A stretch of DNA of 47,886 nt, from the IMG/VR virus record IMGVR_UViG_3300035390_000028, positions 1 to 47,886 of that record; one strand, 5' to 3'. Below are positions 8,592-47,849 of this stretch, one piece after another. The notes beneath the pieces are model-generated. The model saw only the letters and a program-made list of their open reading frames with translations. It was not told the DNA's origin and did no database searches. This DNA is from a virus. Each line of letters begins with the position of its first letter. Position 1 is the stretch's first letter. A program made the translations under genes and the position numbers.

Positions 8592-9530
8592 TTAATTTGA
8601 TGTTACTCCATCCTCTAAGTTTAAAACCTCTCCCATTAATAAATACGTATTAAAAATTAAAGCTTTTGCTTCTTCAAAAGTTACATCAGAATGAATACCA
8701 TTACAAACTCTTTCATATAAATTTGACAAATTTTGACGCAATCTATCTTTTCGAGTTTTACTTGTAATCTTTGTATCAATATAAACATTAATTCGATTTT
8801 TAGCATTTTTCTTTTGTAATTTTAGTTCATTTCCATTAATTGTAATGGTTTCATCACTTGGAGGAAAAATAAAATCAGCAAAAGTATCAATTATTCTTCT
8901 ACATGATGATAGAGCTTGGCTAATTGATTCTGAATCTTTTTCTTGTAATCTATCCATTACTGATGGTAACATTTCAATAACATCCTTTGCTTCTTTGGTA
9001 ATTGATTTATCAATATCTTGTTTATATTTTTCAAAAATAGAGTCGATAACCTTTTCATAAGTAATAGAATAGTAAACGTCAGTAATATAATCATGAAGAA
9101 TAGAAAAAACACTACCTTTAATACCAGATAAATGTGAAATTATTATTCCTATTTTGTTAATGCTATTAGTAACACCATAATTAACTAAAATTGCATCATT
9201 ACCACTTGAATCTGTAGTTCTATAACATAAAAGTTTTTTTTCATTTACTTTTATCAATGTTTCAATTTGTACTAATGATTCAAAATATCCACTTGAGTGT
9301 TCTTCATTAGTCCATCTTTTCGTTTGTTCCATATAATCTTCAGAAATAGAACCGTTATCATATCCTCGCAACTCATAATCAATCCATTCCTCAATATCAT
9401 TATCTTTCTCTGGTCTAAGACGTAATAACCTTTTTGTTTTTAATAATATTTTTTCTCCAGTTATTCTATCTAATTCAATATCAGCCAGAATTTCCTTTGT
9501 AAATTCTAATATTTCTTCTTGTTTTTTCAT
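8592..9530 (-). CDS. AbiTii-like abortive-infection protein
   Basis: A 312-residue protein. Residues 1-60 match my memory of the AbiTii N-terminal domain: a helix with EILADIELDRI, a kinase-like spacing of Leu/Lys, then EEWIDYELRGY. Residues 200-305 are helical with SCRRIIDTFADFIFPP and RVCNGIHSDVTFEEA, like the C-terminal domain in several abortive-infection proteins. The family is linked to phage exclusion. AGGAGAGAGAA precedes the ATG. It sits in a cassette with a membrane protein and two DUF285-repeat proteins inside the prophage, so it probably defends the lysogen against other phages. The domain call is by eye. Confidence 0.6.
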   Translation of the reverse strand: MKKQEEILEFTKEILADIELDRITGEKILLKTKRLLRLRPEKDNDIEEWIDYELRGYDNGSISEDYMEQTKRWTNEEHSSGYFESLVQIETLIKVNEKKLLCYRTTDSSGNDAILVNYGVTNSINKIGIIISHLSGIKGSVFSILHDYITDVYYSITYEKVIDSIFEKYKQDIDKSITKEAKDVIEMLPSVMDRLQEKDSESISQALSSCRRIIDTFADFIFPPSDETITINGNELKLQKKNAKNRINVYIDTKITSKTRKDRLRQNLSNLYERVCNGIHSDVTFEEAKALIFNTYLLMGEVLNLEDGVTSN

Positions 9531-9568: not shown

Positions 9569-9976
9569 TTACTTCATTAACATTCCAGTTGAAACATCAC
9601 CTTTGAAAGAAGAATTTCTAAACATTAAGTTCATATTTTTAACAGAAGAAACCTTCCAATTTGAAAGGTCTCTATTAAACTTAGAGTTAAGAAACATCAA
9701 ACTCATATCTTCAACATTAGCAACATTCCAGTTGGCAATATCTCTATTAAACTTAGAGTTAATAAACATAGCACTCATATTTCTAACAGAAGATACATTC
9801 CACTTAGAGATATCTCTATTGAATATTGTATCTGAGAACATTCCTCTCATATCTGTAATAGTTGATTCATCTATATAATTTAAATCAACTTCATTTCCAT
9901 TCTCTTTAATAGCTCTTCTTATCTCTACTTCTAATTCTTTCTTAATATAAACAATTAACTGAAAGTTCTTATCCAT
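9569..9976 (-). CDS. Short DUF285 (BspA-type) repeat protein without signal peptide
   Basis: A 135-residue protein carrying about four DUF285 repeats of 24 residues (FNRDISKWNVSSV, NMSAMF). The leader ELEVEIRRAIKENG and DLNYIDESTITDM parallels that of the larger neighbour. It lacks a signal peptide, so it would stay in the cytoplasm. CTGGAG precedes the ATG. It is either a truncated paralogue of the gene at 10009 or a cytosolic partner of the downstream AbiTii-like gene, 38 bases away. Confidence 0.65.
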   Translation of the reverse strand: MDKNFQLIVYIKKELEVEIRRAIKENGNEVDLNYIDESTITDMRGMFSDTIFNRDISKWNVSSVRNMSAMFINSKFNRDIANWNVANVEDMSLMFLNSKFNRDLSNWKVSSVKNMNLMFRNSSFKGDVSTGMLMK

Positions 9977-10008: not shown

Positions 10009-11352
10009 CTATTTATCATCTTCGGGTTTGTTAGCCCAGTGAGTAATACTTCCATTAAATTCAGAATCAGTAAATATATCACTCATATCAGTTACATTAG
10101 AAACATCCCAGTGAGAAATATTTCTATTAAATTCAGAATAATTAAACATAGAATTCATATCATTTACTTTTGAAACATTCCAACGCGAAATATCTCCATT
10201 GAATTCAGATGACATAAACATAAAATTCATATTAGTAACTTGAGAAACATCCCAATCAGAAATATCACCATTAAATATTGTTGCAGCAAACATAAAACTC
10301 ATATCAATTACTTGAGAAACATCCCACTTAGAAATATCACTATTATTTTGAGAGTAACAAAATAGACAACTCATATCAGTAACTTTAGAAACATCCCATT
10401 TAGAAATATCTCCATTGAATTCAGAGGAATAGAACATACTATTCATATCAGTAACTTTAGAAACATCCCACTTAGAAATATCTCCATTAAATTCAGAGCT
10501 ATCGAACATACTATTCATATCAGTAACTTGAGAAACATCCCACTTAGAAATATCTCCATTAAATTCAGAGCTATCGAACATACTATTCATATCAGTAACT
10601 TTAGAAACATCCCACTCAGAAATATCTCCATTAAAAGAAGATTCTTGGAACAATAATTTCATATCTGATACATTAGAAACATCCCATTTAGAAATATCTC
10701 CATTGAAAGAAGATTCCCAAAACATATAACGCATATTAGTAACTTGAGAAACATCCCAATCAGAAATATCACCATTAAATATTGTTAAACAAAACACCCC
10801 AGAGATATCAATAACATTAGAAACATCCCATTTAGAAATATCCCCATTGAAAGGAGAATCACAAAATATCCAACTAATATCATTAACATTAGAAACATCC
10901 CATTTAGAAATATCTCCATTGAAAAGGGATTCATTAAACATTCCTTGCATATCAGTAACATTTGAAACATCCCATTTAGAAATATCTCCATTGAAAAAAG
11001 AAAAATAAAACATACTATTCATATCGGTAACATTTGAAACATTCCATTTAGAAATATCTCCATCGAATCTTGAACAAAAAAACATTTTATGCATATCGGT
11101 AACATTAGAAACATCCCAATAAGAAATATTTCCATAGAAATAAGATTGACTAAACAACTCACTCATATCAGTAATATTAGAAACATCAATATAATTTAAA
11201 TCAACTTTATTTCCATTTTCTTCAATAGCCTGAGATATATATGTTTGTAATTCTTCTTTTGTTTGTGGAACTACTCTACTAACCCCAAAGATGAAACTTG
11301 GTAATACAAAACCAAGTAATATTAAAATCAACAGTACTTTTTTCTTATTCAT
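10009..11352 (-). CDS. Secreted BspA-family (DUF285) repeat protein
   Basis: About 447 residues, starting at the ATG at 11352 because GGGAGAG precedes it. The N-terminus is a signal peptide (KKK then LLILILLGFVLPSFIFG). The rest is about 15 repeats of 24 residues with consensus FNGDISKWDVSNVTDM..MF, typical of BspA-type leucine-rich surface proteins. There is no sortase or membrane anchor at the C-terminus. Two repeats at 10467-10610 are identical at the DNA level except for one base, so the array changes length. It heads the minus-strand cassette with the Abi genes; a lysogenic-conversion adhesin is likely. Confidence 0.8.
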   Translation of the reverse strand: MNKKKVLLILILLGFVLPSFIFGVSRVVPQTKEELQTYISQAIEENGNKVDLNYIDVSNITDMSELFSQSYFYGNISYWDVSNVTDMHKMFFCSRFDGDISKWNVSNVTDMNSMFYFSFFNGDISKWDVSNVTDMQGMFNESLFNGDISKWDVSNVNDISWIFCDSPFNGDISKWDVSNVIDISGVFCLTIFNGDISDWDVSQVTNMRYMFWESSFNGDISKWDVSNVSDMKLLFQESSFNGDISEWDVSKVTDMNSMFDSSEFNGDISKWDVSQVTDMNSMFDSSEFNGDISKWDVSKVTDMNSMFYSSEFNGDISKWDVSKVTDMSCLFCYSQNNSDISKWDVSQVIDMSFMFAATIFNGDISDWDVSQVTNMNFMFMSSEFNGDISRWNVSKVNDMNSMFNYSEFNRNISHWDVSNVTDMSDIFTDSEFNGSITHWANKPEDDK

Positions 11353-11427
11353 TTTATCTCTCCCTAATTTATTCATAAATACTACAACTATTAGGTAACT
11401 AAGTCAAAAGAAATATCTCTCTTAACA

Positions 11428-33951: not shown

Positions 33952-34539
33952 CTAAAAACAAGGAACAGTTGCGTCTTTTGAAAGTCCGTAACTATTAAAT
34001 AATCCATCTCTAAATTCTGATTTTTCCTGCTTTATGTACAATATGTAGTAATTACTATTGCTATTACTTTTCAATCTTACAAAAGGCAGGTTATTATCTT
34101 TTTCTTCATAATTAACATACAAATCACATGCTTCATCATATTCAATATTATGACGCTTAGAATATCTTCTAACTAATTTTTCTTTGTTGTCCTTTATCTG
34201 AACTCTAGAAAAATTAACAAATCCGATTTCTGAAGGCACATCTCTTATTTTTGTAATATGAATATAATCCAACAACTTTGATAATCTACTCGTTAAACCA
34301 ACTTTCTCAAATTGAATTTCTGATAGATAAAAGATTCTTATTTTATCACCTAAAGTAAAATTATCAAGACAATATTTAGGGAATGAAATAGCTACATTGG
34401 ATTCCCCTTTACATTTTAATTCTGAAAATATTTTATGCAATTCTTCATACACTTTACATAATAAAAAATCTGTACTAATTTCCTCAGAAGATATCAATGT
34501 AATTTCTTGGTAAAAATTAAACTTATTTTGAGACTTCAC
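33952..34539 (-). CDS. cas6f: Type I-F crRNA endonuclease Cas6f (Csy4)
   Basis: About 195 residues, starting at the GTG at 34539 because the GGGGAGG ribosome site lies 9 bases upstream; an in-frame GTG at 34548 is too close to it. It cleaves the repeat RNA and stays bound to the hairpin. EELHKIF holds the catalytic His (residue 35 from this start), followed by NVAISFPKY. The C-terminus YGLSKDATVPCF is the conserved Cas6f ending. It overlaps csy3 by 17 bases. Confidence 0.9.
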   Translation of the reverse strand: MKSQNKFNFYQEITLISSEEISTDFLLCKVYEELHKIFSELKCKGESNVAISFPKYCLDNFTLGDKIRIFYLSEIQFEKVGLTSRLSKLLDYIHITKIRDVPSEIGFVNFSRVQIKDNKEKLVRRYSKRHNIEYDEACDLYVNYEEKDNNLPFVRLKSNSNSNYYILYIKQEKSEFRDGLFNSYGLSKDATVPCF

Positions 34540-35548
34540 CAAAAACACCTCCCCTAATTATCATTGCGATTGAATAATTAGCTTCTTCGGTATTATTAAA
34601 TACAGAATTTCCGGTTGCTTTGTCAAATACAGTATAAAAATCTATTTTAGTTGCTGGACTTCTGTAAGCCCTTCCTAAGTTAGTAACAGAACCATAAGTT
34701 TCTATAGCAATTGGAGTATTTAATTCTTCATACTCATCAAACCAGGTATCAATTGTTCTAAGAGCATTACCAATTTTTTGAGAATGCATTCCAGCAACTC
34801 CATCGATAGAGAATAATATTTTACTTTTCTTACCTTTATTACTACTGCTACTGCTCTTATCAAGAACCAATTCTTCACTAGGATAAACATCTTGAGCTTC
34901 GCCCATTTTTACATATGCATCAATTTTTAAATTTAAGAAATCACTATCACTAGCAAGAGCAGATGCAATCATTTTACCTAGTTCTTTAACATCCTTATTA
35001 TCAGAATCAAAATTCCTAATACTAAAGTCAAAAGCGTTAAAGATCCATTCTTTTCCTTTTCTCTCTTCTTTTACATGAATTTCAATAGCATCAGTTCCTA
35101 CTCTATTTCTCCACAAGAATCGTCCGTTAGCAATATTAATTGCATATCTTAAACCAAGTTCATCAAAACCTATTTCAGATTGGAATGTATCAATTAATTT
35201 TTCATAACGTTTTAGAAAAGCTTTATCATTACAAGATGAAGGAGTTTTAATATTTCCTAAAACCTTCAAAGTAAAAAACATATGCAATGTATCGAAACCG
35301 ATAGGTAAGTTACAAGCATCTACTATCTGTAAATTTGCATTTTGTATCATCTTATCAAGTTTTGCAGGATCGGTTGCATCACCTTTTTTCAATCTATTTG
35401 AAATTGTACCCTTAATTGATTTAGCAATTATTTTTAGAGGAACGTTATTTTCAATTTTATTTCCCCATTTTGAAGCGAACATAATACCATTGGATGGTAC
35501 CAATTTTTTTTCATAAGCTAATACTGATGGTAAAGTAATTTTTGCCAT
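34523..35548 (-). CDS. cas7f: Type I-F Cas7f (Csy3), crRNA backbone subunit
   Basis: A 341-residue protein, the size of characterised Csy3 (about 342). It polymerises along the spacer part of crRNA. Recognisable segments are LPSVLAYEKKLVPSNGIMFA at the start, FTLKVLGNIKTPSSCNDKAF, and LRYAINIANGRFLWRNRVGT. It lies between csy2 (12-base gap) and csy4 (overlap), the standard order. Confidence 0.92.
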   Translation of the reverse strand: MAKITLPSVLAYEKKLVPSNGIMFASKWGNKIENNVPLKIIAKSIKGTISNRLKKGDATDPAKLDKMIQNANLQIVDACNLPIGFDTLHMFFTLKVLGNIKTPSSCNDKAFLKRYEKLIDTFQSEIGFDELGLRYAINIANGRFLWRNRVGTDAIEIHVKEERKGKEWIFNAFDFSIRNFDSDNKDVKELGKMIASALASDSDFLNLKIDAYVKMGEAQDVYPSEELVLDKSSSSSNKGKKSKILFSIDGVAGMHSQKIGNALRTIDTWFDEYEELNTPIAIETYGSVTNLGRAYRSPATKIDFYTVFDKATGNSVFNNTEEANYSIAMIIRGGVFGEVSK

Positions 35549-35560
35549 TTTATTTCTCCT

Positions 35561-36439
35561 CTATTTACAAATATATAAATTATTTATTTCGTCATATTCA
35601 TATTGCCATAACATTTGATCTATAGAATCTAATCTGTAGGGCATTACAAACTCACCTAAAGTAACTATTGCTTCAGCAAATCTATGTAGATAATCATTAT
35701 TACGTTGATTCTCAACATGCTTTAACTCATCAAGACCTTGATATCCAACTGAAATTGGAACAAACCAGCCATTACTAAGTTTCTTGCTTCTACTCCATTC
35801 AACTACTTCCTTTTCATCAATTTCGGCCTTTGTATTTACCTGAATAAATGATATTACAGAATCAAAAGCATTGATTGAATTTTGTATCATGTCGTTTTCA
35901 ATTAAAGATTTTCGATTTATTATAGAAAAGCCCTTGTTCAAACTTCTTAAGAATTTTTTATCATCATTTTCCGAATTATCATCAATTCTTTTTAAGAATA
36001 CATTCTTGTAAGAAATAATATTTCCACTAGCAATTTTCATCCTAGAATGTAATAAAGTCTCAACATCTTCAATAAATTGAGACTCTTTTAATTTTCTAAC
36101 ACCATCATATTCAATCAACAATGAAACTTCTAAATTACATAGAGGTTCCTCTATAAATGAATCGGTTTTCCCTGTTCCTAATAATGGATGTCGTTTTTCA
36201 ATAACTGACAAGTTTGAATAAAACAACTGAGAATCTTTATACACTCTTAAATCAAAATCATTGCAAATTATACCAATTTTATTTAACTTCAAATCAGTAT
36301 ATTCATCACTTAATTCCCTCTGTAATCTATGCATAAAGCCTAAAAACGACGTAATAGCAGGAAATCCAACAGTATATGGTGATGAAAAGGCATTTGCCTC
36401 TTCGATTTTTACATTTGTAATTGTTAAATATTTTTTCAT
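35561..36439 (-). CDS. cas5f: Type I-F Cas5f (Csy2)
   Basis: A 292-residue subunit that binds the 5' crRNA handle together with Cas8f. Conserved segments are YTVGFPAITSFLGFMHRLQR, RHPLLGTGKTDSFIEEP, and the C-terminal FAEAIVTLGEFVMPYRLD. Its ATG overlaps the csy1 stop (ATGA), a translational coupling. Confidence 0.9.
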   Translation of the reverse strand: MKKYLTITNVKIEEANAFSSPYTVGFPAITSFLGFMHRLQRELSDEYTDLKLNKIGIICNDFDLRVYKDSQLFYSNLSVIEKRHPLLGTGKTDSFIEEPLCNLEVSLLIEYDGVRKLKESQFIEDVETLLHSRMKIASGNIISYKNVFLKRIDDNSENDDKKFLRSLNKGFSIINRKSLIENDMIQNSINAFDSVISFIQVNTKAEIDEKEVVEWSRSKKLSNGWFVPISVGYQGLDELKHVENQRNNDYLHRFAEAIVTLGEFVMPYRLDSIDQMLWQYEYDEINNLYICK

Positions 36440-37815
36440 GAAAGAACCTCCATATTTTCGTTTAACAATTCATTAATAAAGGTAATTTCTAAATCACCCA
36501 ATATATAATGGTCTTCAAATTTAAATTTCTTAAAACTAAAAACAATCCATCTTGCAATCATAGAAATAAACTGAGATATATCTGTAGACAAATCTCTTTC
36601 ATCTTCATATTTTGAATCTAATATTTTTTTCTGATATTCCGGCAAACTGGCGTATCTTTCACCTTCACTCCAACCTGGTTCAACTGCTCTTATTGATTGA
36701 ACCTTTTCAATTATTTTATCAAATATATTAAAAATAACTGAATCACGATAATCACGTATATTTTGATTATTATAATTTATACTAAATACATCGTGTAGAC
36801 TTTTAAAATTACCACGGTAATTATTAAAATATAGACTCTCCCTAAAAAAATCATAATGAGGTAATCTTACATTACGTTTTTTTAAGATTGGAGGAAGTGA
36901 AGAAAACATATAAGCAGTACTATTAATTGAATTTAAATATGATATATTTTGTTTCTTAGTTCCACCAAATCCAATTTCAACAACATCATAAATATCATGA
37001 ATTTCTACATCTGAATATTTGTTTTTCTTTTTTGCCTCTCTTACTAATTTTGCTTCATCAGAAAATTTATTATCAAGAATGTTTTTTTTCAAATAGAATA
37101 ATTGATCAGATGGGTATAAAATTGATAGCAAATGATAATCTTCATAGCCAATTGGAAAAAAAACCTGTTTCAATTTATTATCTGTTTGAGTAATATTTTC
37201 ACTATGTTTAATGCTTAATATTGCTTCTTTAATCTCACTATAAGATAATCTTAGATGTGCAAAATTTGATTTTGCACACTCATCATCCATCTTAAAATGC
37301 TCTAAAAGAGTTTTATCATCTTCCAATTTTAGATAAAGAAATTTAACATATCCTAATAATGCAGCATTAACCGAAACATCTTCTTGAACTGGTCCACAAT
37401 TGCCTGATCTAATGTAACCGTCATTTCTAGCTTCATTAGTTGCCCATAAGTTAATTGGTGCACTAATTTTCGAATTAGTATATTTGCAACAATGTGAGCA
37501 GAAAATAATTTTTTCATTTAGTGTTTTAAGTATTTTAGGTAAATATTCATTTATAAAATAAATCAAGTTTTTTTCAATTGTAATATCAACAATATCTTTA
37601 TTCTCTAAATCTTCAACTTTTAAGTTTACACCTAACCAAGTCTTTACTGAATCTATCTTAGAATCTTGATTAATCTTAATTGATAATTCAGTAGTAATCT
37701 TTTTTTCTGAATCATTTTTTAAAATTTTCTCTTTTTCTTTAATATAACTATTTGTACTTTTATTTATTTCATTTCTTGCTTTATCAACAAAATATTCTCT
37801 TAAATTATTATCCAA
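36436..37815 (-). CDS. cas8f: Type I-F Cas8f (Csy1), PAM-recognising large subunit
   Basis: A 459-residue subunit that reads the PAM and opens the target. The start is a TTG at 37815, 5 bases after AGGAGGT, which lies in the end of cas2-3. The segment LWATNEARNDGYIRSGNCGPVQED and the C-terminal ARWIVFSFKKFKF match Csy1. A CSHCC motif at about residue 105 could bind zinc. Confidence 0.85.
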   Translation of the reverse strand: MDNNLREYFVDKARNEINKSTNSYIKEKEKILKNDSEKKITTELSIKINQDSKIDSVKTWLGVNLKVEDLENKDIVDITIEKNLIYFINEYLPKILKTLNEKIIFCSHCCKYTNSKISAPINLWATNEARNDGYIRSGNCGPVQEDVSVNAALLGYVKFLYLKLEDDKTLLEHFKMDDECAKSNFAHLRLSYSEIKEAILSIKHSENITQTDNKLKQVFFPIGYEDYHLLSILYPSDQLFYLKKNILDNKFSDEAKLVREAKKKNKYSDVEIHDIYDVVEIGFGGTKKQNISYLNSINSTAYMFSSLPPILKKRNVRLPHYDFFRESLYFNNYRGNFKSLHDVFSINYNNQNIRDYRDSVIFNIFDKIIEKVQSIRAVEPGWSEGERYASLPEYQKKILDSKYEDERDLSTDISQFISMIARWIVFSFKKFKFEDHYILGDLEITFINELLNENMEVLS

Positions 37816-37818
37816 ATT

Positions 37819-40800
37819 TTACCTCCTATTTAATCCTAATCTTACTGAGTAAGAAAGAGCCTTTTTCTCCAATAAATAATTGGGGACTTCAATGAAGCTA
37901 TACACTCTTTCAACTTTATCACTACTCAAATTCATTCTTTCACAATAACTATCAATGACCTTTCTGTAATCAAGCTCTAGCCACATCTTTTCAGTTTTTT
38001 CATTTTCTATAAATTCAATATTATAAGTTTCATTCACAGCAATAAAATGCCCATAATCATCTCTTTCATAGAAGTTAAATTCATCTTCAGTATAGAAACA
38101 ATAAATCCTTTTATTATCTACCCCGTTTCTAAATCGTGCATATATCATAGGCAAACCTGTTAAAGCCCAAAAACCTTTATAGTATCCATTTAAATTCTCA
38201 GGACCAAATCCATCACCTTCATTCAGTAAAGAATATTTAATTGATTCATGCTCAATATTTATTAAACTATTATTATGATTGAATTCACTATTTTGCTTCA
38301 ATCTTGGTATAGAATTAATACTTTTATTCAATTCCTTATTATCAATAATCTCATACATATTATGTGATGATAATTTATAGTCTTTTCCTTGTTCGTAACC
38401 CGGCTTATTAAAAACAGCATTATCATCATTTTTTAAAGAATTCAAATTATATTGTAATATTGCAATATTAGAAGATTTGCATATTTTTTTTCTATGACGT
38501 AAAACTCTTCCTGCTAATTGTATTATTGATCTTACAGAAGATGGTTCAACAATTGCCCAATCAAAGTCATGATCTCTACCCACCTCTTCAATTGGGGATG
38601 AAATAATCATGAAAATAATGTTATCTTTTTTCGATCTATCAATGTGAGACCTTATAGTATTATCAGTAAAACAAAAGGTATCTACTTCATCCTTTCGGTA
38701 AAGAACCTTATCAAGATAATTTTCAATTTCATTTCTAACAAGAAGTATATTTCTACTGTGATAGCATAGATAAAATATGTCTGTATCATCACAATTATAA
38801 TTATTTAGACTTCCTGCAAAATCAATACAATTATCAATATGTGCAAATCTAACTAAACCAAATGAAATACATTTGTTACTTTTAGCATCAATTACATTAT
38901 TGGATTTATGAAGTACTATTGAAGATTCAATCATTTTATATAAAACTTCTTCTTTAGAATCATCTAGACTAAAATCAATTAAAGTTCCTTTTCTCTTTAT
39001 TCCATTTTTAGCCTCTTCATCTTGCAAAGATACAATTCTTTTATTAATGAACTTTTGATATTTATCCTCAAACACTTTAAGATCTTTAGGTTCTTTAAAT
39101 ACAGAATTAGAAAATTCATCTACAAAGCAAGTAATTATGGGACTAAGGCTTTTATTATATGCATTTTTAACAGCCCAACCTTCTGAATAAGCTTTATAAT
39201 AACCTTTTGAAATACTAGGAGTAATTGTTGCTGAAGATATCAATACCCGTCGTCCCAACATACCAGCTAGATATACCAAATGAGCTATTGCAATCAAATC
39301 ATCAAATACAAAATCGTCTATCTCATCAATAATTAAATCACTTGTTGAAAGTCTCAAAAAAGGTACAATCCACCTCCCACCAAGATAATTTTCACTTGCA
39401 GGAATTAGATGATCTATTGTGCTTACACACAGTGGAGCACAGAGGAATTTCATATCTTTATCTGATTTAATAACAGTAGATAAAGCTACATCTGAAATAA
39501 TATTACCATAATCTATATCATCAAATGATGATAAATCAAAAACGGATTCATTCTTTTCTAAATTATGTAATTTATCAATGGCACTTGATCCTATTACAAC
39601 CGCTAAATCTGTATTATCAATATGCATTTTATTACGATACATATCACCTGTTTGTAAAGTCAAACTTCTTAACCCCAAAGCTATATTAAACCTTACATCT
39701 TCTTCTTTACTAGATATTGCATTTAATATTTTTGCATTTGCAAAAGTTTTACCAGTACCTGTTGAAGCTAAATTAACGCAAAAAAAGCCATTTTCTTTCT
39801 TGTCTTCATCCTCAATATTCTTTAACTTTGCAGCAATTTTATCTTGCCAATAAAACTTAGAATCTTTGTTAGATTTTTTAGTGAGGGCTTTAGCATTTTC
39901 CAAACCGAGTAGTTGTGAGGAACTCTTATTGACTGTATAAATTGCCTGTAGAGCTTCTTTTTCTACTCCTAATAAGTGTTCTTCTAAAAATTGTTTTACT
40001 TTACCTTTATGCTCTCTATCGCTACAAGTATTTGCATATAATTTTAGCTTGCATGTATATTTTTCATCTTTATCTTTTGAAGAAAAATAATAATCACCCA
40101 GCATTAAATACAATCTAGCTTTTTTTACAAGCAGAAATAGCACTCTCTCATCATCTATAGATTCAAATAAATCTAATTGATTTAATAATTTATTACTCCA
40201 TTTTTTTACTTCTTTTGTCCATCGATCAGAAAAATTTATGCCGTTAGAAAATGAATTAATATATTCTTTATCATTTGTTTTATGATAACCCCATCCATCA
40301 TCAATTAGTTGGAATAATTCCTTCCAATTATCAATACCTTCACCTAGGTATTCTTTATCTTTTTTTTCTGATTTTATAAAAGGCATTCTATGATGAGATA
40401 TTATCAAATATGAAATAATAAGAACTAAATTTGAAAATTGAGATTTATCACTTTTGATATTAATACCTTTTTCTTTTAATAAAGAAGACTGTTTTATTAA
40501 CACCTCATCAAATTCAGGTGATGCAAAATCAGATAACCATGGTTTATCATCGTTATTTTTAATAAACGATTGAAACATAAACATTGATATATATTCATGT
40601 CTTATGATATCGGATTTCTTTTTATTCTTTAACATACCCTGAAATCCATCAGAAGCTTTTCCTAAATCATGAAATAATGCAGAAAGAGCAACAATACATT
40701 TAATTAATGGTAGATAATGGTCTTTATTTTCCCACTCATTATGTAAAAGATTTTTAGAGGTAGTAGCAATCGGTACAATTCCTTCTACTGTATATTTAAG

Positions 40801-41037
40801 CTTACTACCAACAATCCATAATAATTCAGATTCTTTTATTTTATGAAGCCAATGACAGGCCACAGAAGTATTCTTGGAAGCAGTCTTGCATAGATGAGCC
40901 TTTACAACCTTAAGGCCCTCTAAAGTGATGTTAGTTTTCCATGTTGTGGGACCTATTCTATTAGCATACATATCCAATACTTGAGCAGTCTTTAGTCTAG
41001 ATTTTTTTTCACTTAAAGAAATAAATACTACAATCAT
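37819..41037 (-). CDS. cas2-3: Cas2-Cas3 fusion, helicase-nuclease of type I-F
   Basis: A 1072-residue fusion specific to type I-F: a Cas2 domain at residues 1-90 (integration), an HD nuclease (LFHDLGKA, His123-Asp124, later SHHRMP), and an SF2 helicase (Walker A STGTGKT at 425-431, DEID at 571-574, SSAT at 601-604, and QLAGRVLRHRK). It degrades targeted DNA and takes part in spacer acquisition with Cas1. All key motifs are intact. It starts 5 bases after cas1 and ends 3 bases before csy1. Confidence 0.95.
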   Translation of the reverse strand: MIVVFISLSEKKSRLKTAQVLDMYANRIGPTTWKTNITLEGLKVVKAHLCKTASKNTSVACHWLHKIKESELLWIVGSKLKYTVEGIVPIATTSKNLLHNEWENKDHYLPLIKCIVALSALFHDLGKASDGFQGMLKNKKKSDIIRHEYISMFMFQSFIKNNDDKPWLSDFASPEFDEVLIKQSSLLKEKGINIKSDKSQFSNLVLIISYLIISHHRMPFIKSEKKDKEYLGEGIDNWKELFQLIDDGWGYHKTNDKEYINSFSNGINFSDRWTKEVKKWSNKLLNQLDLFESIDDERVLFLLVKKARLYLMLGDYYFSSKDKDEKYTCKLKLYANTCSDREHKGKVKQFLEEHLLGVEKEALQAIYTVNKSSSQLLGLENAKALTKKSNKDSKFYWQDKIAAKLKNIEDEDKKENGFFCVNLASTGTGKTFANAKILNAISSKEEDVRFNIALGLRSLTLQTGDMYRNKMHIDNTDLAVVIGSSAIDKLHNLEKNESVFDLSSFDDIDYGNIISDVALSTVIKSDKDMKFLCAPLCVSTIDHLIPASENYLGGRWIVPFLRLSTSDLIIDEIDDFVFDDLIAIAHLVYLAGMLGRRVLISSATITPSISKGYYKAYSEGWAVKNAYNKSLSPIITCFVDEFSNSVFKEPKDLKVFEDKYQKFINKRIVSLQDEEAKNGIKRKGTLIDFSLDDSKEEVLYKMIESSIVLHKSNNVIDAKSNKCISFGLVRFAHIDNCIDFAGSLNNYNCDDTDIFYLCYHSRNILLVRNEIENYLDKVLYRKDEVDTFCFTDNTIRSHIDRSKKDNIIFMIISSPIEEVGRDHDFDWAIVEPSSVRSIIQLAGRVLRHRKKICKSSNIAILQYNLNSLKNDDNAVFNKPGYEQGKDYKLSSHNMYEIIDNKELNKSINSIPRLKQNSEFNHNNSLINIEHESIKYSLLNEGDGFGPENLNGYYKGFWALTGLPMIYARFRNGVDNKRIYCFYTEDEFNFYERDDYGHFIAVNETYNIEFIENEKTEKMWLELDYRKVIDSYCERMNLSSDKVERVYSFIEVPNYLLEKKALSYSVRLGLNRR

Positions 41038-41042
41038 AAATA

Positions 41043-42011
41043 CTACTTCCTTATTTGAGAAAATTCTTCTGCAATCAGTTGAACTGAATCAAACATGAAG
41101 TCTAAAACTTTGTAATCAGTAAACTTTTTAATACATTCACTTCGAAATAGTTCATCTTCAATAAAATCATCATAAGTACTAAATGCAAGGGGAAGAACAA
41201 CTGCATCTTTTATTAAATCAGCTACATCAAACACAAGAGCCCCTCTTCTTGTTTTTCCATGCATCAATGCAAAAGCAGGAGGAATTCCTAATGCCCATAA
41301 AGATAGAGAAGCCAACCCATATGCTAAATAGTTTCCATAATTCAAATTTTGATTTATCCTATCATTATTACTTCTATCACGTGAAAAATCTTTTATTTTA
41401 TTATGAATACATGCTATCCTATATAAAGATTTAGTAAATTTTGCTTCAGAAAGAAGTAAAGAATTAACATCACTTGCACTTGCTATAGACTTTCTAAAGA
41501 TTCTAATGATTTTTTCAACTTCAATAGAATCATTTTCAAAACCACATTTTCTAAACAAGTTATCTTTAGAATAAACTTTATCAATAAAATCTAAACGAAG
41601 ATATTGAAATTTCTTGGCAGCTAGTAGTCTAATTTCATTATCGTACCAGAATGAAACCCATTGCTGTAAAAACTGAGTTGGTCTATATTCATTTTTCGAA
41701 CTAACCCACTCTATATCTGTACCAGCAATTAAAGGGGTACCATTGCTACCAGAAAAACCTAGCATAACTCCTGCAGATGATAGATATCTTACTGCAGCTT
41801 GTGTAATAGATGTACCTGTACCAAGCAGAATTACTGTGGTATTTGCTATTGGTATATTATAGTAAAAGAACTTATTTTTTACTTGAGTTAGATATGTAAC
41901 CCTACCATCTTTAACCAATATTCTGCATTTTTCTAAGTAATAGATATTTGTTCTTTTCGAATAAAGTATTGCTTTTAAATCTTTTGATTGTAGCTGTTCT
42001 TCATAATTCAT
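41043..42011 (-). CDS. cas1: Type I-F Cas1 integrase
   Basis: A 322-residue protein that catalyses spacer integration at the leader-proximal repeat. Conserved LGTGTSITQAAVRYLSSAGV, then LSLWALGIPPAFALMHGKTRRGALVFDVADLIKDAVVLPLAF, which holds the His and Asp of the metal site. It is the first gene of the cas operon. The array is upstream and transcribed toward it. Confidence 0.95.
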   Translation of the reverse strand: MNYEEQLQSKDLKAILYSKRTNIYYLEKCRILVKDGRVTYLTQVKNKFFYYNIPIANTTVILLGTGTSITQAAVRYLSSAGVMLGFSGSNGTPLIAGTDIEWVSSKNEYRPTQFLQQWVSFWYDNEIRLLAAKKFQYLRLDFIDKVYSKDNLFRKCGFENDSIEVEKIIRIFRKSIASASDVNSLLLSEAKFTKSLYRIACIHNKIKDFSRDRSNNDRINQNLNYGNYLAYGLASLSLWALGIPPAFALMHGKTRRGALVFDVADLIKDAVVLPLAFSTYDDFIEDELFRSECIKKFTDYKVLDFMFDSVQLIAEEFSQIRK

Positions 42012-42386: not shown

Positions 42387-45300
42387 TGTCTAAGTTGCCT
42401 ATTCGGCAGATAACTTATAATGGACGATTGGGAAGAATTCATAAGCTCTTTAAGCTGCCTATTCGGCAGATAACTATCTTGGCATTTCATTTTTCCCAAA
42501 TTAGTATCTCTAACCTGCCTATTCGGCAGATAACGGTTTATCCTTGGGCTACGTGTTAACGCTGAGTCTCAAAGCTGCCTATTCAGCAGATAACTTATGT
42601 TCTGATGATTACGGGTGGGACAATGATCTCTAAGCTGCCTAATCGGCAGATAACTAGATAGTAGAAAAAAATGGAATTTTGGAAAATCTCTAAGCTGCCT
42701 ATTCGGCAGATAACCAATTAAAATGTATAGTGAGGATATTTCACGATCTCTAAGCTGCCTATTCGGCAGATAACTTGTAGATGGTGAACTAGATTTAACT
42801 TTAAAATCTCTAAGCTGCCTATTCGGCAGATAACATATAAATATTTTTTTATCTATATAATCTTATTTCTCTAAGCTGCCTATTCGGCAGATAAGGTGCT
42901 TCCATCTCTGCTAATGCAAATTCAGCTTCTCTAAGCTGCCTATTCGGCAGATAACTTCTGGAGCTCTCCAAGTCTTTTAAGTCCTGCTCTCTAAGCTGCC
43001 TATCCGGCAGATAACCTAAGTATCTCGGTGGTCATAGTGATGTTATTTCTCTAAGCTGCCTATCCGGCAGATAACATTGGGACGCTATCGTCCTTGGTGC
43101 ATTGGCTTCTCTAAGCTGCCTATCCGGCAGATAACACTTACTCCAGGAAAAAAAGGGTAACTATCATTCTCTAAGCTGCCTATCCGGCAGATAACCGCCC
43201 GTAACCTCAATTATTTGCTTGCCTTTTTCTCTAAGCTGCCTATCCGGCAGATAACTAATTCCCTTGCTTCTATAGGGTGTGTCTTAGTCTCTAAGCTGCC
43301 TATCCGGCAGATAACCTGTGGAAATCTTAGAGATACATTCGATTACTTCTCTAAGCTGCCTATCCGGCAGATAACATATTCCATATCTTGCAGTTGATAG
43401 ACAAGTTTCTCTAAGCTGCCTATCCGGCAGATAACCAATTGTATCTCAGATTATTAAACTACATTCATCTCTAAGCTGCCTATCCGGCAGATAACGATAC
43501 TACTTTAAATCTTGATTTTACTTATGATCTCTAAGCTGCCTATCCGGCAGATAACATGTAGGTAATGATCCTTATTTTGGTGCAGATTCTCTAAGCTGCC
43601 TATCCGGCAGATAACTTAACATTCATAAACCCTTTGCGAACGTGCACTCTCTAAGCTGCCTATCCGGCAGATAACTGGGAACGGGGGACGCATATACGGT
43701 TTTTTTGGTCTCTAAGCTGCCTATCCGGCAGATAACATCCTAAAACTGTTAATGATAGAATCATTGGTTCTCTAAGCTGCCTATCCGGCAGATAACTTTT
43801 TAAAAGCTAAAGGTTATCCAATTTCTATTCTCTAAGCTGCCTATCCGGCAGATAACCAATTAAAGATGATGTTATGCTCGATTTTCAATCTCTAAGCTGC
43901 CTATCCGGCAGATAACTATTATGGATTCATTGGACTTTGTTTTCAATTTCTCTAAGCTGCCTATCCGGCAGATAACACACACCCCACTACTAGCTTTTTT
44001 ATTTCAAACTCTCTAAGCTGCCTATCCGGCAGATAACAGGCTTACTAAGTGTAAGTTTAAAGAAAGATTTCTCTAAGCTGCCTATCCGGCAGATAACTGT
44101 CAATAATGCCACGTTCTGCATACCAACAGTCTCTAAGCTGCCTATCCGGCAGATAACACTAATAGACCATAATTAAGGAGACCTTAAATTCTCTAAGCTG
44201 CCTATCCGGCAGATAACATTTACGAGATACTTTCGATTATTGGCATCTATCTCGAAGCTGCCTATCCGGCAGATAACATTGGATCAGGTGGAAAAGTCAC
44301 TTTTGTAAATCTCTAAGCTGCCTATCCGGCAGATAACATGGCTCGAAAGAAATGCAAGGGCAGGGGTTATCTCTAAGCTGCCTATCCGGCAGATAACTTT
44401 TACTATCAATTAATGAGAATGATTTAAAATCTCTAAGCTGCCTATCCGGCAGATAACAAGACGTTTGTAATACTTCCGAGATAATAACTTCTCTAAGCTG
44501 CCTATCCGGCAGATAACGTGTCCTCTTTTGGACACTATTTTTTGTTTAATCTCTAAGCTGCCTATCCGGCAGATAACTTCTGTTTAACTAAATAAACACC
44601 CCCCCTAAATCTCTAAGCTGCCTATCCGGCAGATAACGATACAGTTGATTTCTTTGAACCTTGGGAGCGGTCTCTAAGCTGCCTATCCGGCAGATAACCA
44701 ACATTTGCTTGACATTTCTCATAGCGACTATCTCTAAGCTGCCTATCCGGCAGATAACTTATCTCCGGGAACCATTTCTTCACACATGGTATCTCTAAGC
44801 TGCCTATCCGGCAGATAACTACCAATTGCGGTACTTCTTGGATTCCAACGATCTCTAAGCTGCCTATCCGGCAGATAACTTGTTAACATTGTTTGTCCTT
44901 GTGCTCCGCACTCTCTAAGCTGCCTATCCGGCAGATAACACCATGTTCATGTAATGTATCAATATCTTCAATCTCTAAGCTGCCTATCCGGCAGATAACA
45001 AGACGTTTGTAATACTTCTGAGATAATAACTTCTCTAAGCTGCCTATCCGGCAGATAACCAATATTCCCAACAACTTAATTTGCCTCATATTCTCTAAGC
45101 TGCCTATCCGGCAGATAACGATAAGCCAGAAACCGCATTAACTCCGTGGAGTTCTCTAAGCTGCCTATCCGGCAGATAACATATAAGGCGTATACAGAGC
45201 CTAAACTTGAATTCTCTAAGCTGCCTATCCGGCAGATAACTATGATGATTTTATGAATTATAAAGAATTTGATCTCTAAGCTGCCTATCCGGCAGATAAC

Positions 45301-45901
45301 CCTCATGTATGGAGTAAAGTTTCCGTCAAGATTCTCTAAGCTGCCTATCCGGCAGATAACGCTCGTTTGTTTATATCTTCCCTCATATAAGGTCTCTAAG
45401 CTGCCTATCCGGCAGATAACCCAGGTATTATCACATATAGTTATAAGATTATTCTCTAAGCTGCCTATCCGGCAGATAACAACCTGGGGATTTAATAAAC
45501 ATGACTTTGATTTCTCTAAGCTGCCTATCCGGCAGATAACATAGGTTCATATTGTTTCCTTGTGCTCCGCACTCTCTAAGCTGCCTATCCGGCAGATAAC
45601 ACTTGTAAATGAATACAACTCATTAAGAGTTTTCTCTAAGCTGCCTATCCGGCAGATAACTCATACCACGTTGAATAAGCCAAGCTTGAAAATCTCTAAG
45701 CTGCCTATCCGGCAGATAACGATTACAAGTTATAAAGGACTCATTTAACAGATCTCTAAGCTGCCTATCCGGCAGATAACTTACCACCCTTCTCACTCAT
45801 GTCAAAAGGAATGTCTCTAAGCTGCCTATCCGGCAGATAACTAAATTATGAATAGGATCTAACGCAACGTAGTTCTCTAAGCTGCCTATCCGGCAGATAA
45901 C
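42387..45901 (-). CRISPR. Type I-F CRISPR array, 59 repeats and 58 spacers
   Basis: The 28-base repeat, read on the minus strand, has stem CTGCC-GGATA-GGCAG and ends with handle CTTAGAGA, like I-F repeats. Fifty-one spacers are 32 bases and seven are 33 (numbers 8, 22, 27, 38, 40, 46 and 57 counted from the low-coordinate end). Transcription is on the minus strand: repeat orientation, degenerate repeats at the low-coordinate end, and PAM placement of two spacer matches all agree. Repeats 1-10 carry TATTCGG (or worse) in plus-strand reading; repeats 11-59 carry TATCCGG. Repeat 9 ends with G and repeat 32 has TCTCGAAG. Open frames through this region are artefacts of the repeat. Confidence 0.98.
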
Positions 45902-46370
45902 ACAAAAAAAATTAGACTAATTATTTATATAGTATAAATATATGTGTATTTTCTTGAAAAATACAATCTTTTTTTATAATTTTTTTAATAAATATTGAAA
46001 CAATATATTTATATATCCAGAAAGAAATTAAATTTAATTAAAAAAAACAAAGACAACAAGCATAAAATATTCCTATTTTCTAAGAACAAGATAAGTTTAA
46101 TTAAAATTTGATACACAAGGTAGTTTTTAATAGTTACGATAAAATATTCAATAAAATATATTTTCAGAATTATTTACTCTGCTATTTCATTCAAATTATA
46201 TATCATAATCAAATAAAATAATAAACTAATTTTGTTATTGCTAATTAATTTTAGTAAATCAAAAAGACTATTATTTAAAATATACAAATTACATCATACA
46301 ATACAAAAAAAACTCCTAGTAATTTAATATTAAAGTTTTTTAGCTATTGAATTTTGCTTCCTAGTTGTTA
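45902..46370 (-). promoter_or_regulatory. CRISPR leader region
   Basis: It holds no gene. Very AT-rich, it directly abuts the repeat at 45874-45901, which is clean like the others near it, as expected for the leader end. On the minus strand TATACTATATAA lies about 40 bases before the first repeat and could be the crRNA promoter -10. Confidence 0.65.
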
Positions 46371-47849
46371 TTAATCTTCAATTTGCCAAAACAGATTAAC
46401 TTCAACATTTTTCTCTACTTGTTTTATTGTAGATGTTCCTGAATGCAACTTAATAATCTGAGATACAATTGCAAGTCCAAGGCCATTACCACCACTGGTT
46501 CTACTCTTGTCTCCTCTTTCCCACGGTTCAAAGAAATCAACTGTATCATCAATTGTACCAGGGTTTGTAACAACTATATTGTTTTCTTTAATAGTTACTT
46601 CTACACCCTCTTTTGAGACCTCTAGTGCATTATCAAGTAATTCTTTTATAGCAAGTTTCATGGTTGTGAAATCGCAATAAATCTCATCACTTTCTATGTT
46701 GAATTTAACTGTTTTGTATTTAATGTTTGATCTAATTAAATCATCAACGAGTACTCGAGATTCAGTTGCTTGAGGTATTATTGCTTTTTCAGGACTCTGC
46801 AATGATGAATATAATACAACTCTATTTATCTTATTAGATAGATCTTGTTGTTCATTTTTCAGTGTTTTAACGGTTTGTTGGTTAAGAGGAAATATTCCAT
46901 CTTCCATTCCACTAAGCAAAAGATTCATTGATGTTATTGGAGTATTTAAATCATGTGTGATTGAATTCAGCCAAGCTTTTCTGTTCTTTCTGTTTGCAGC
47001 AAGAGATTCATCAAGGCTATGAATTGATTCAATAATCTCTTGATATTCTTCAATCTTATTGTGACTTGATAGCTCTAGATTTTCTTTTCCTAGTGCTAAT
47101 TTATTAAGGGAATCTTTTATCTCTGTTATTGATTTTTGACTTATCTTACTTATTCTGTAACTCATTATAAAAGCAATCAATAAGGCAATCATAAAACAAA
47201 TACTCAACCATTTTGCTGCTTGTCTCATTATCATTGAAGTTGCAGCATATGTGGATGGACTGTAGTTTAGTACATCAACACTAAATGCATATTGACCGCG
47301 AAGAAGTACTATCAAACTACCGCCAATGAATTTCTCTTTAATCATTGGAGGTACTTCAAGATTTCTTGTATCTGTATCTTTTTTAGCTACAACTTGCAGT
47401 GTTACTTTATCATCTGTTAGGTTTAGTATATTTACCCTATCTCTAACAGCAATTGTTACAAATTCACTTTCATCAAGATCTTGTCCCTTTAAAAGTTTTG
47501 TTGTTGTATTTGGTTCTGATGATTGTATTTGTGCTAACTTTTCACCTAGTTGAGTAACACCTAGAGAATAGATTATTTTATCATTTGGCCCTCTAAATAA
47601 AAGACCAGAAATTCTCTTATCGGATAATGCTGCTGAATCTGTTATTTGAATAAATTTGCCAAAACTCATCTCACCTTGTGCATTTGAAACAGAAGAAGCT
47701 ACCTTCTGGCTAAATGTTTCAAAGCTTTGTTCGACCCAATCATTTGTAGCGGAATTATAGAACAAACTTATTGAAGCGATTATAAATAAAATTATAATCA
47801 CTGCAACGCTTATTATTGATAAAAATGTTCTAAAAAATAGTTTTCGCAT
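46371..47849 (-). CDS. Membrane sensor histidine kinase
   Basis: About 492 residues. I choose the ATG at 47849; an in-frame TTG at 47864 overlaps the upstream gene and lies too near AGGAG. Numbered from the longer TTG form: a membrane segment at about 11-34, an extracytoplasmic sensor to 215, a second membrane segment near 218-236, a linker, the H-box THDLNTPI with His304, the N-box LLDNALEVS (Asn412), the F-box FFEPW (444-448) and the G-box GNGLGLAIVS. It is the partner of the regulator whose end overlaps the window edge. Two array spacers match it. Confidence 0.9.
   Translation of the reverse strand: MRKLFFRTFLSIISVAVIIILFIIASISLFYNSATNDWVEQSFETFSQKVASSVSNAQGEMSFGKFIQITDSAALSDKRISGLLFRGPNDKIIYSLGVTQLGEKLAQIQSSEPNTTTKLLKGQDLDESEFVTIAVRDRVNILNLTDDKVTLQVVAKKDTDTRNLEVPPMIKEKFIGGSLIVLLRGQYAFSVDVLNYSPSTYAATSMIMRQAAKWLSICFMIALLIAFIMSYRISKISQKSITEIKDSLNKLALGKENLELSSHNKIEEYQEIIESIHSLDESLAANRKNRKAWLNSITHDLNTPITSMNLLLSGMEDGIFPLNQQTVKTLKNEQQDLSNKINRVVLYSSLQSPEKAIIPQATESRVLVDDLIRSNIKYKTVKFNIESDEIYCDFTTMKLAIKELLDNALEVSKEGVEVTIKENNIVVTNPGTIDDTVDFFEPWERGDKSRTSGGNGLGLAIVSQIIKLHSGTSTIKQVEKNVEVNLFWQIED
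46440..46471 (+). other. Protospacer-like site for spacer 18
   Basis: Matches spacer 18 (43436-43467) at 29 of 32 bases, in the sensor-kinase G-box coding sequence. CC lies immediately 5' (46438-46439), the type I-F PAM. The mismatches are at crRNA positions 7, 9 and 10. All three are silent in the kinase frame. Confidence 0.9.
46515..46547 (+). other. Protospacer-like site for spacer 38
   Basis: Matches spacer 38 (44638-44670) at 29 of 33 bases, in the F-box coding sequence. CC lies immediately 5' (46513-46514). The mismatches are at crRNA positions 1, 3, 4 and 10. All four are silent in the kinase frame. Confidence 0.92.

Follow-up and report, generated by a model that had tools for sequence, protein, structure and literature searches.

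What does it mean that a CRISPR array holds two spacers nearly matching the gene beside its own leader, and how would the host live with them? The locus lies in a window of 47.9 kb (47,886 nucleotides), the whole stretch of DNA analyzed here, which is an IMG/VR virus record (IMGVR_UViG_3300035390_000028) made up of prophage, intron, and bacterial parts. Positions 1 to ~33.1 kb are a tailed-phage prophage with integrase, terminase, portal, head, and tape measure genes, and group II intron sequence occupies 33.5 to 33.9 kb. The remainder is bacterial and carries a type I-F cas operon that is complete, an array of 58 spacers, and the gene for a histidine kinase (Table 1), with only ~10 kb of nonarray host DNA in view.

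Table 1. Features of the CRISPR-Cas locus, the two kinase-matching spacers, and their targets
Feature	Coordinates	Strand	Remarks
csy4 (cas6f)	33952..34548	-	Profile match
csy3 (cas7f)	34523..35548	-	Profile match
csy2 (cas5f)	35561..36439	-	Profile match
csy1 (cas8f)	36436..37815	-	PF09611, 2.1e-79; below NCBIfam cutoff (132 vs 169 bits)
cas2-3 (Cas3f)	37819..41037	-	TIGR02562, 3.4e-240; HD and GTGKT motifs
cas1 (Cas1f)	41043..42011	-	TIGR03637, 9.6e-117
Type I-F CRISPR array	42387..45901	-	59 repeats of 28 nt, 58 spacers
Spacer 18	43436..43467	- (crRNA sense)	41st from leader; matches 46440-46471, 29/32
Spacer 38 (33 nt)	44638..44670	-	21st from leader; matches 46515-46547, 29/33
AT-rich leader region separating kinase from array	~45902..46370	-	Side inferred from repeat degeneration at opposite end
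Sensor histidine kinase, 497 aa	46371..47864	-	HisKA and HATPase_c; chromosomal, single copy in relatives
PAM CC, spacer 18 target	46438..46439	+	Directly 5'
Partial protospacer, spacer 18	46440..46471	+	Kinase codons 465-475; mismatches AAG/AAA, TTG/CTA, synonymous
PAM CC, spacer 38 target	46513..46514	+	Directly 5'
Partial protospacer, spacer 38	46515..46547	+	Kinase codons 440-450; mismatches CCG/CCT, GAA/GAG, AGA/CGG, synonymous

The prophage encodes a long DUF285 repeat protein (10009-11376; eight stretches, E 2.7e-215) near a shorter DUF285 gene (9569-9976), and an AbiTii-like gene (8592-9530; Pfam PF18864) that is possibly a phage-borne defense gene. A second record, IMGVR_UViG_3300035389_000048, is 99.99 to 100% identical to window positions 1 to 33894 and continues into other host DNA. 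The switch point (33894) is the end of the group II intron, and in both records a terminator hairpin adjoins it. Either the prophage occupies two sites or one of the assemblies switched at the intron. The spacers had no match in this sister prophage contig or its host flank.

The bacterial part assigns itself to subtype I-F1 by several features. One operon contains cas1, a fused cas2-3 gene, and csy1 to csy4; the repeat is a palindromic 28-nt sequence of the I-F kind, with spacers of 32 to 33 nt; and CC lies on the crRNA-matching strand (GG on the target strand) at both of the two known targets, with the I-F strand convention for the PAM taken from PMC4117759. Spirochaete I-F repeats resemble the repeat of this array, and another spirochaete genome (G309, L051-L052) has an I-F array of ~87 spacers with nearly the same repeat. 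The repeats of the array degenerate toward its low-coordinate end. Spacers 35 and 44 (44458-44489 and 45000-45031) are one base apart, spacers 42 and 53 (44880-44911 and 45541-45572) are the same over the first 16 bases on the PAM side, beyond which they differ and carry an indel, and spacers 16 and 31 may overlap each other. The array thus appears, from the pairs 35/44 and 42/53, to sample homologous targets repeatedly; searched against IMG/VR, these pairs gave no target or only chance-level matches.

Two spacers match the kinase gene. Spacer 18, which reads TGAATGTAGTTTAATAATCTGAGATACAATTG in crRNA sense, matches the plus strand with three mismatches at crRNA positions 7, 9, and 10, and TTCC precedes its target. 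Spacer 38 has four mismatches over its whole length, at crRNA positions 1, 3, 4, and 10, and CTCC precedes its target. When recomputed, the match of spacer 18 came out as the initial annotation had described it (29/32 bases with CC immediately 5'), as did the 43-base gap between the two sites (46472-46514) on one strand and the ranking of the spacers as 41st and 21st from the leader. BLAST gave the two matches E-values of 1.4e-6 and 1.2e-7 (for one record). The best match of any of the other 56 spacers to the window had at least 9 mismatches, and none of them matched the cas genes, the prophage, or the kinase at ≤8 mismatches or at the peptide level. The best match among 1,160 shuffled spacers had 7 mismatches, and none had fewer. 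Three and four mismatches exceed the usual thresholds for a self-targeting spacer, which are a perfect or near-perfect match to the cell's own DNA with a PAM.

Translated in the kinase frame, spacer 38 reads DTVDFFEPWER and spacer 18 reads IVSQIIKLHS, and these peptides agree with the kinase at 11/11 and 10/10 residues. All seven mismatches are synonymous and fall in five codons (joint Monte Carlo p 5.9e-6; Fisher 2e-6), two of which carry double changes, and a spacer taken from a relative's orthologue should show just this mark of coding constraint (7/7). Random decay of the spacers is excluded as the origin of the mismatches because a spacer is not translated, yet the changes are silent and follow the codons of the gene. 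Since all seven are silent, both spacers derive from an allele that encodes protein and belongs to the flanking kinase gene but differs from the present one.

Each of the seven mismatches lies within 10 bases of the PAM (p ~1e-3, post hoc), and degenerate codons were changed at 5/7 PAM-proximal positions (≤10 bases) versus 0/14 distal ones (p 0.001, noticed after the fact). Synonymous divergence over the 22 codons is ~0.5 per site, a value that is uncorrected and uneven along them. PAM-proximal mismatches weaken type I-F targeting (PMC3630108), and the silent differences beside the PAM probably spare the host's own kinase allele from self-attack. Such clustering would follow if the only survivable foreign spacers were those that mismatch the cell's own allele there, or if the own allele had been selected to change. 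Three relatives carry CCT GAA AGA, so the CCG of the host's gene and the GAG CGG of the spacer both look derived; changes on both sides hint at two alleles evolving separately, in a comparison of codon polarity that is weak with third positions near saturation at the distance of these relatives.

The kinase gene lies ~0.5 kb from the leader end of the array, and before it, at the window edge, stands the end of a response-regulator gene. Its closest relative, at 60% amino acid identity, comes from a Spirochaetaceae genome in which regulator and kinase stand in the same order, so the host is a spirochaete in or near that family. An orthologue is present in 71 of 139 family genomes, one copy in each except G080, where the extra copy is an apparent contig duplicate, and by this distribution the kinase behaves as a chromosomal single-copy gene. 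Of 139 spirochaete genomes, a single one has the codon pattern for VDFFEPWER, and has it within the orthologue. A paralogue is an unlikely source, given the single copy in relatives and the uniqueness of the DNA encoding the motif.

We searched for the sequence from which the spacers were taken. Neither spacer 18 nor spacer 38 had a source in the viral, phage, plasmid, and spirochaete collections, where the best short matches spanned 20 to 26 nt with E-values of 0.02 or worse, which is chance level. A follow-up of the plasmids and integrative elements that the initial annotation had proposed as places to look likewise returned no source for spacer 18. Phage, plasmid, and IMG/VR records contained no close copy of the kinase, the nearest plasmid and phage kinases being ~20 to 30% identical, and the codon patterns for both peptides had no match in IMG/VR; no known phage, plasmid, or viral source was found. 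An exact spacer match was also absent from relatives' chromosomes in the collections searched, where the best kinase has only the 60% identity given above and no close host relative is apparent. Because the kinase is chromosomal and single copy and no close copy was found in phage, plasmid, or IMG/VR records, the chromosome of a relative is the most likely source.

The reading that we favor, with moderate confidence, is that a second kinase allele, in the chromosomal DNA of a close relative, gave rise to both spacers on separate occasions. The matches share gene, frame, and protein with the kinase, have the correct PAM, differ from it silently, and represent two separate acquisitions. Chromosomal DNA of a sister strain or species would have entered the cell, and spacer 18 would have been captured first. 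Spacer 38 matches a site 43 bp 5' of the spacer 18 site on the target strand, in the same orientation. Type I-F priming clusters new protospacers near the primed one, with those on the same target strand somewhat more often 5' of it (~30% versus 20%) (PMC4117759). The geometry is thus consistent with a primed pair without proving one, and the older spacer 18 may perhaps have primed the capture of spacer 38 at a later encounter. The claim that spacer 18 independently matches the same kinase gene therefore stands for the gene, since the translations equal the kinase, and is less sure for the independence; the 19 other spacers between the two do bear out storage at different times. The crRNAs would then cut the relative's allele and spare the host's own, whose silent differences lie next to the PAM, where I-F depends on pairing, and the effect would be a barrier at this locus to incoming DNA of close relatives. 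Capture of spacers from the chromosome of another species has been demonstrated in Haloferax (PMC7694759; PMC12814878). Capture from a relative has three points against it: no relative's allele with an exact match was found; given the ~10 kb of nonarray host DNA in view, a target so close to the array would be a surprise under random sampling of donor DNA, and a local hotspot would suit self-capture better; and the concentration of mismatches on the PAM side is steeper than uniform divergence, so that selection by survivorship is needed.

The chief rival is that the spacers were captured from the host's own kinase and that the lineage survived through silent PAM-adjacent change that arose by mutation or came from a relative's allele through recombination. 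We consider this doubtful but keep it in serious view because the target, ~0.5 kb from the leader, adjoins it in the position of the E. coli hotspot, self-spacer hotspots of the E. coli I-E system lying upstream of an array (PMC10011333), and because so little host DNA is visible. Seven silent mismatches within 10 nt of the PAM are also what escape under coding constraint predicts, and several could have been selected since escape is only partial when one seed base is changed (C3T) in I-F (PMC3630108). However, in I-F a single change in the PAM would be enough (PMC3630108), and still neither PAM is altered; double changes are present in two of the codons; and self-targeting is toxic, so survival would have been needed twice. 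The host's own GAA AGA are moreover the codons of the three nearest relatives, and it is the spacer that has the rarer GAG CGG, so the change did not necessarily occur in the host's sequence. A mobile element (phage, plasmid, or integrative element) with a close kinase copy is the usual kind of origin for a spacer, and most spirochaete mobile elements are unsequenced, but the distant plasmid and phage kinases, the negative IMG/VR searches, and the single-copy chromosomal behavior of the gene make such a source unlikely.

Two further readings were weighed. The array could be a natural homing-type or incompatibility device, whose layout it shares: the gene adjoining the CRISPR locus would be targeted in its other allele, and silent changes would protect the host's. 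The crRNAs would cut the alternative allele in DNA that enters the cell or belongs to a partner, and repair templated by the host chromosome would keep or spread the linked kinase-CRISPR block. Targeting in Haloferax biases recombination toward the CRISPR-carrying strain (PMC12814878); we nonetheless hold this reading to be quite improbable. It is less probable still that the partial matches were kept to regulate the kinase, with the Csy complex binding without cutting and repressing the gene. Intact PAMs, two nearby sites in one gene, and incomplete pairing would suit regulation, and partial self matches with regulatory effects have been reviewed (PMC6990116). Against it, the mismatches fall in the PAM-proximal part where the R-loop starts, three of them within the first four bases of spacer 38, which makes stable binding improbable; both sites come late in the kinase frame; and the spirochaete arrays described below gave no comparable flank match. 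Chance similarity, excluded by the shuffled spacers, is the least credible reading of all given E-values of 1e-6 to 1e-7 and seven silent mismatches. Capture from a relative's orthologue is the explanation that we prefer.

We compared six other spirochaete arrays (~336 spacers) with their own 40-kb neighborhoods at ≤6 mismatches and found no match; the survey included an array with an I-E-like repeat (G078), and short contigs made some neighborhoods smaller. Flank targeting is therefore not usual in these systems, and the case is so far without a parallel among them. It offers a natural, sequence-readable instance of bacterial CRISPR memory in which the target is not a parasite but the form of a chromosomal gene that a relative carries, and it suggests a simple rule of self-tolerance, silent mismatches beside the PAM. 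If the pattern recurs, CRISPR would be a barrier to gene flow between close bacterial lineages, a role for which the experimental evidence so far comes mainly from haloarchaea. Any genome that has an array can be put through the silent-mismatch test.

Events of this kind are known, and what is unusual here is how clearly the sequence shows one. In the 2016 work of Almendros, which PMC8616872 cites, anti-cas spacers of E. coli CRISPR4 are reported as ones that may keep out relatives' chromosomal DNA in or around a CRISPR locus, a likeness to the barrier considered here; those spacers reportedly target cas genes from arrays without cas, whereas here the target is a flanking kinase beside a complete system. 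The I-F self-targeting of Pectobacterium (Vercoe 2013; PMC3630108) likewise involves a spacer that matches the host's own chromosome and a mismatch that explains tolerance. There the match is perfect, lies in a horizontally acquired island, and is tolerated through a PAM mutation, whereas here the PAMs are intact, the mismatches are silent and PAM proximal, and the gene adjoins the array (PMC3630108). Primed adaptation in I-F (Richter 2014; PMC4117759) also yields a second spacer near an older, mismatched one, with the strand shared, but it was seen with plasmids and immediate acquisition, and here 19 unrelated spacers intervene. The Haloferax work (Turgeman-Grott 2019, cited in PMC7694759 and PMC12814878) has in common with our case spacers against a relative's chromosomal gene and a host that is spared. 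It concerns a type I-B system in archaea and cell fusion during mating, established by experiment, whereas ours concerns a type I-F system in a spirochaete, inferred from silent mismatches.
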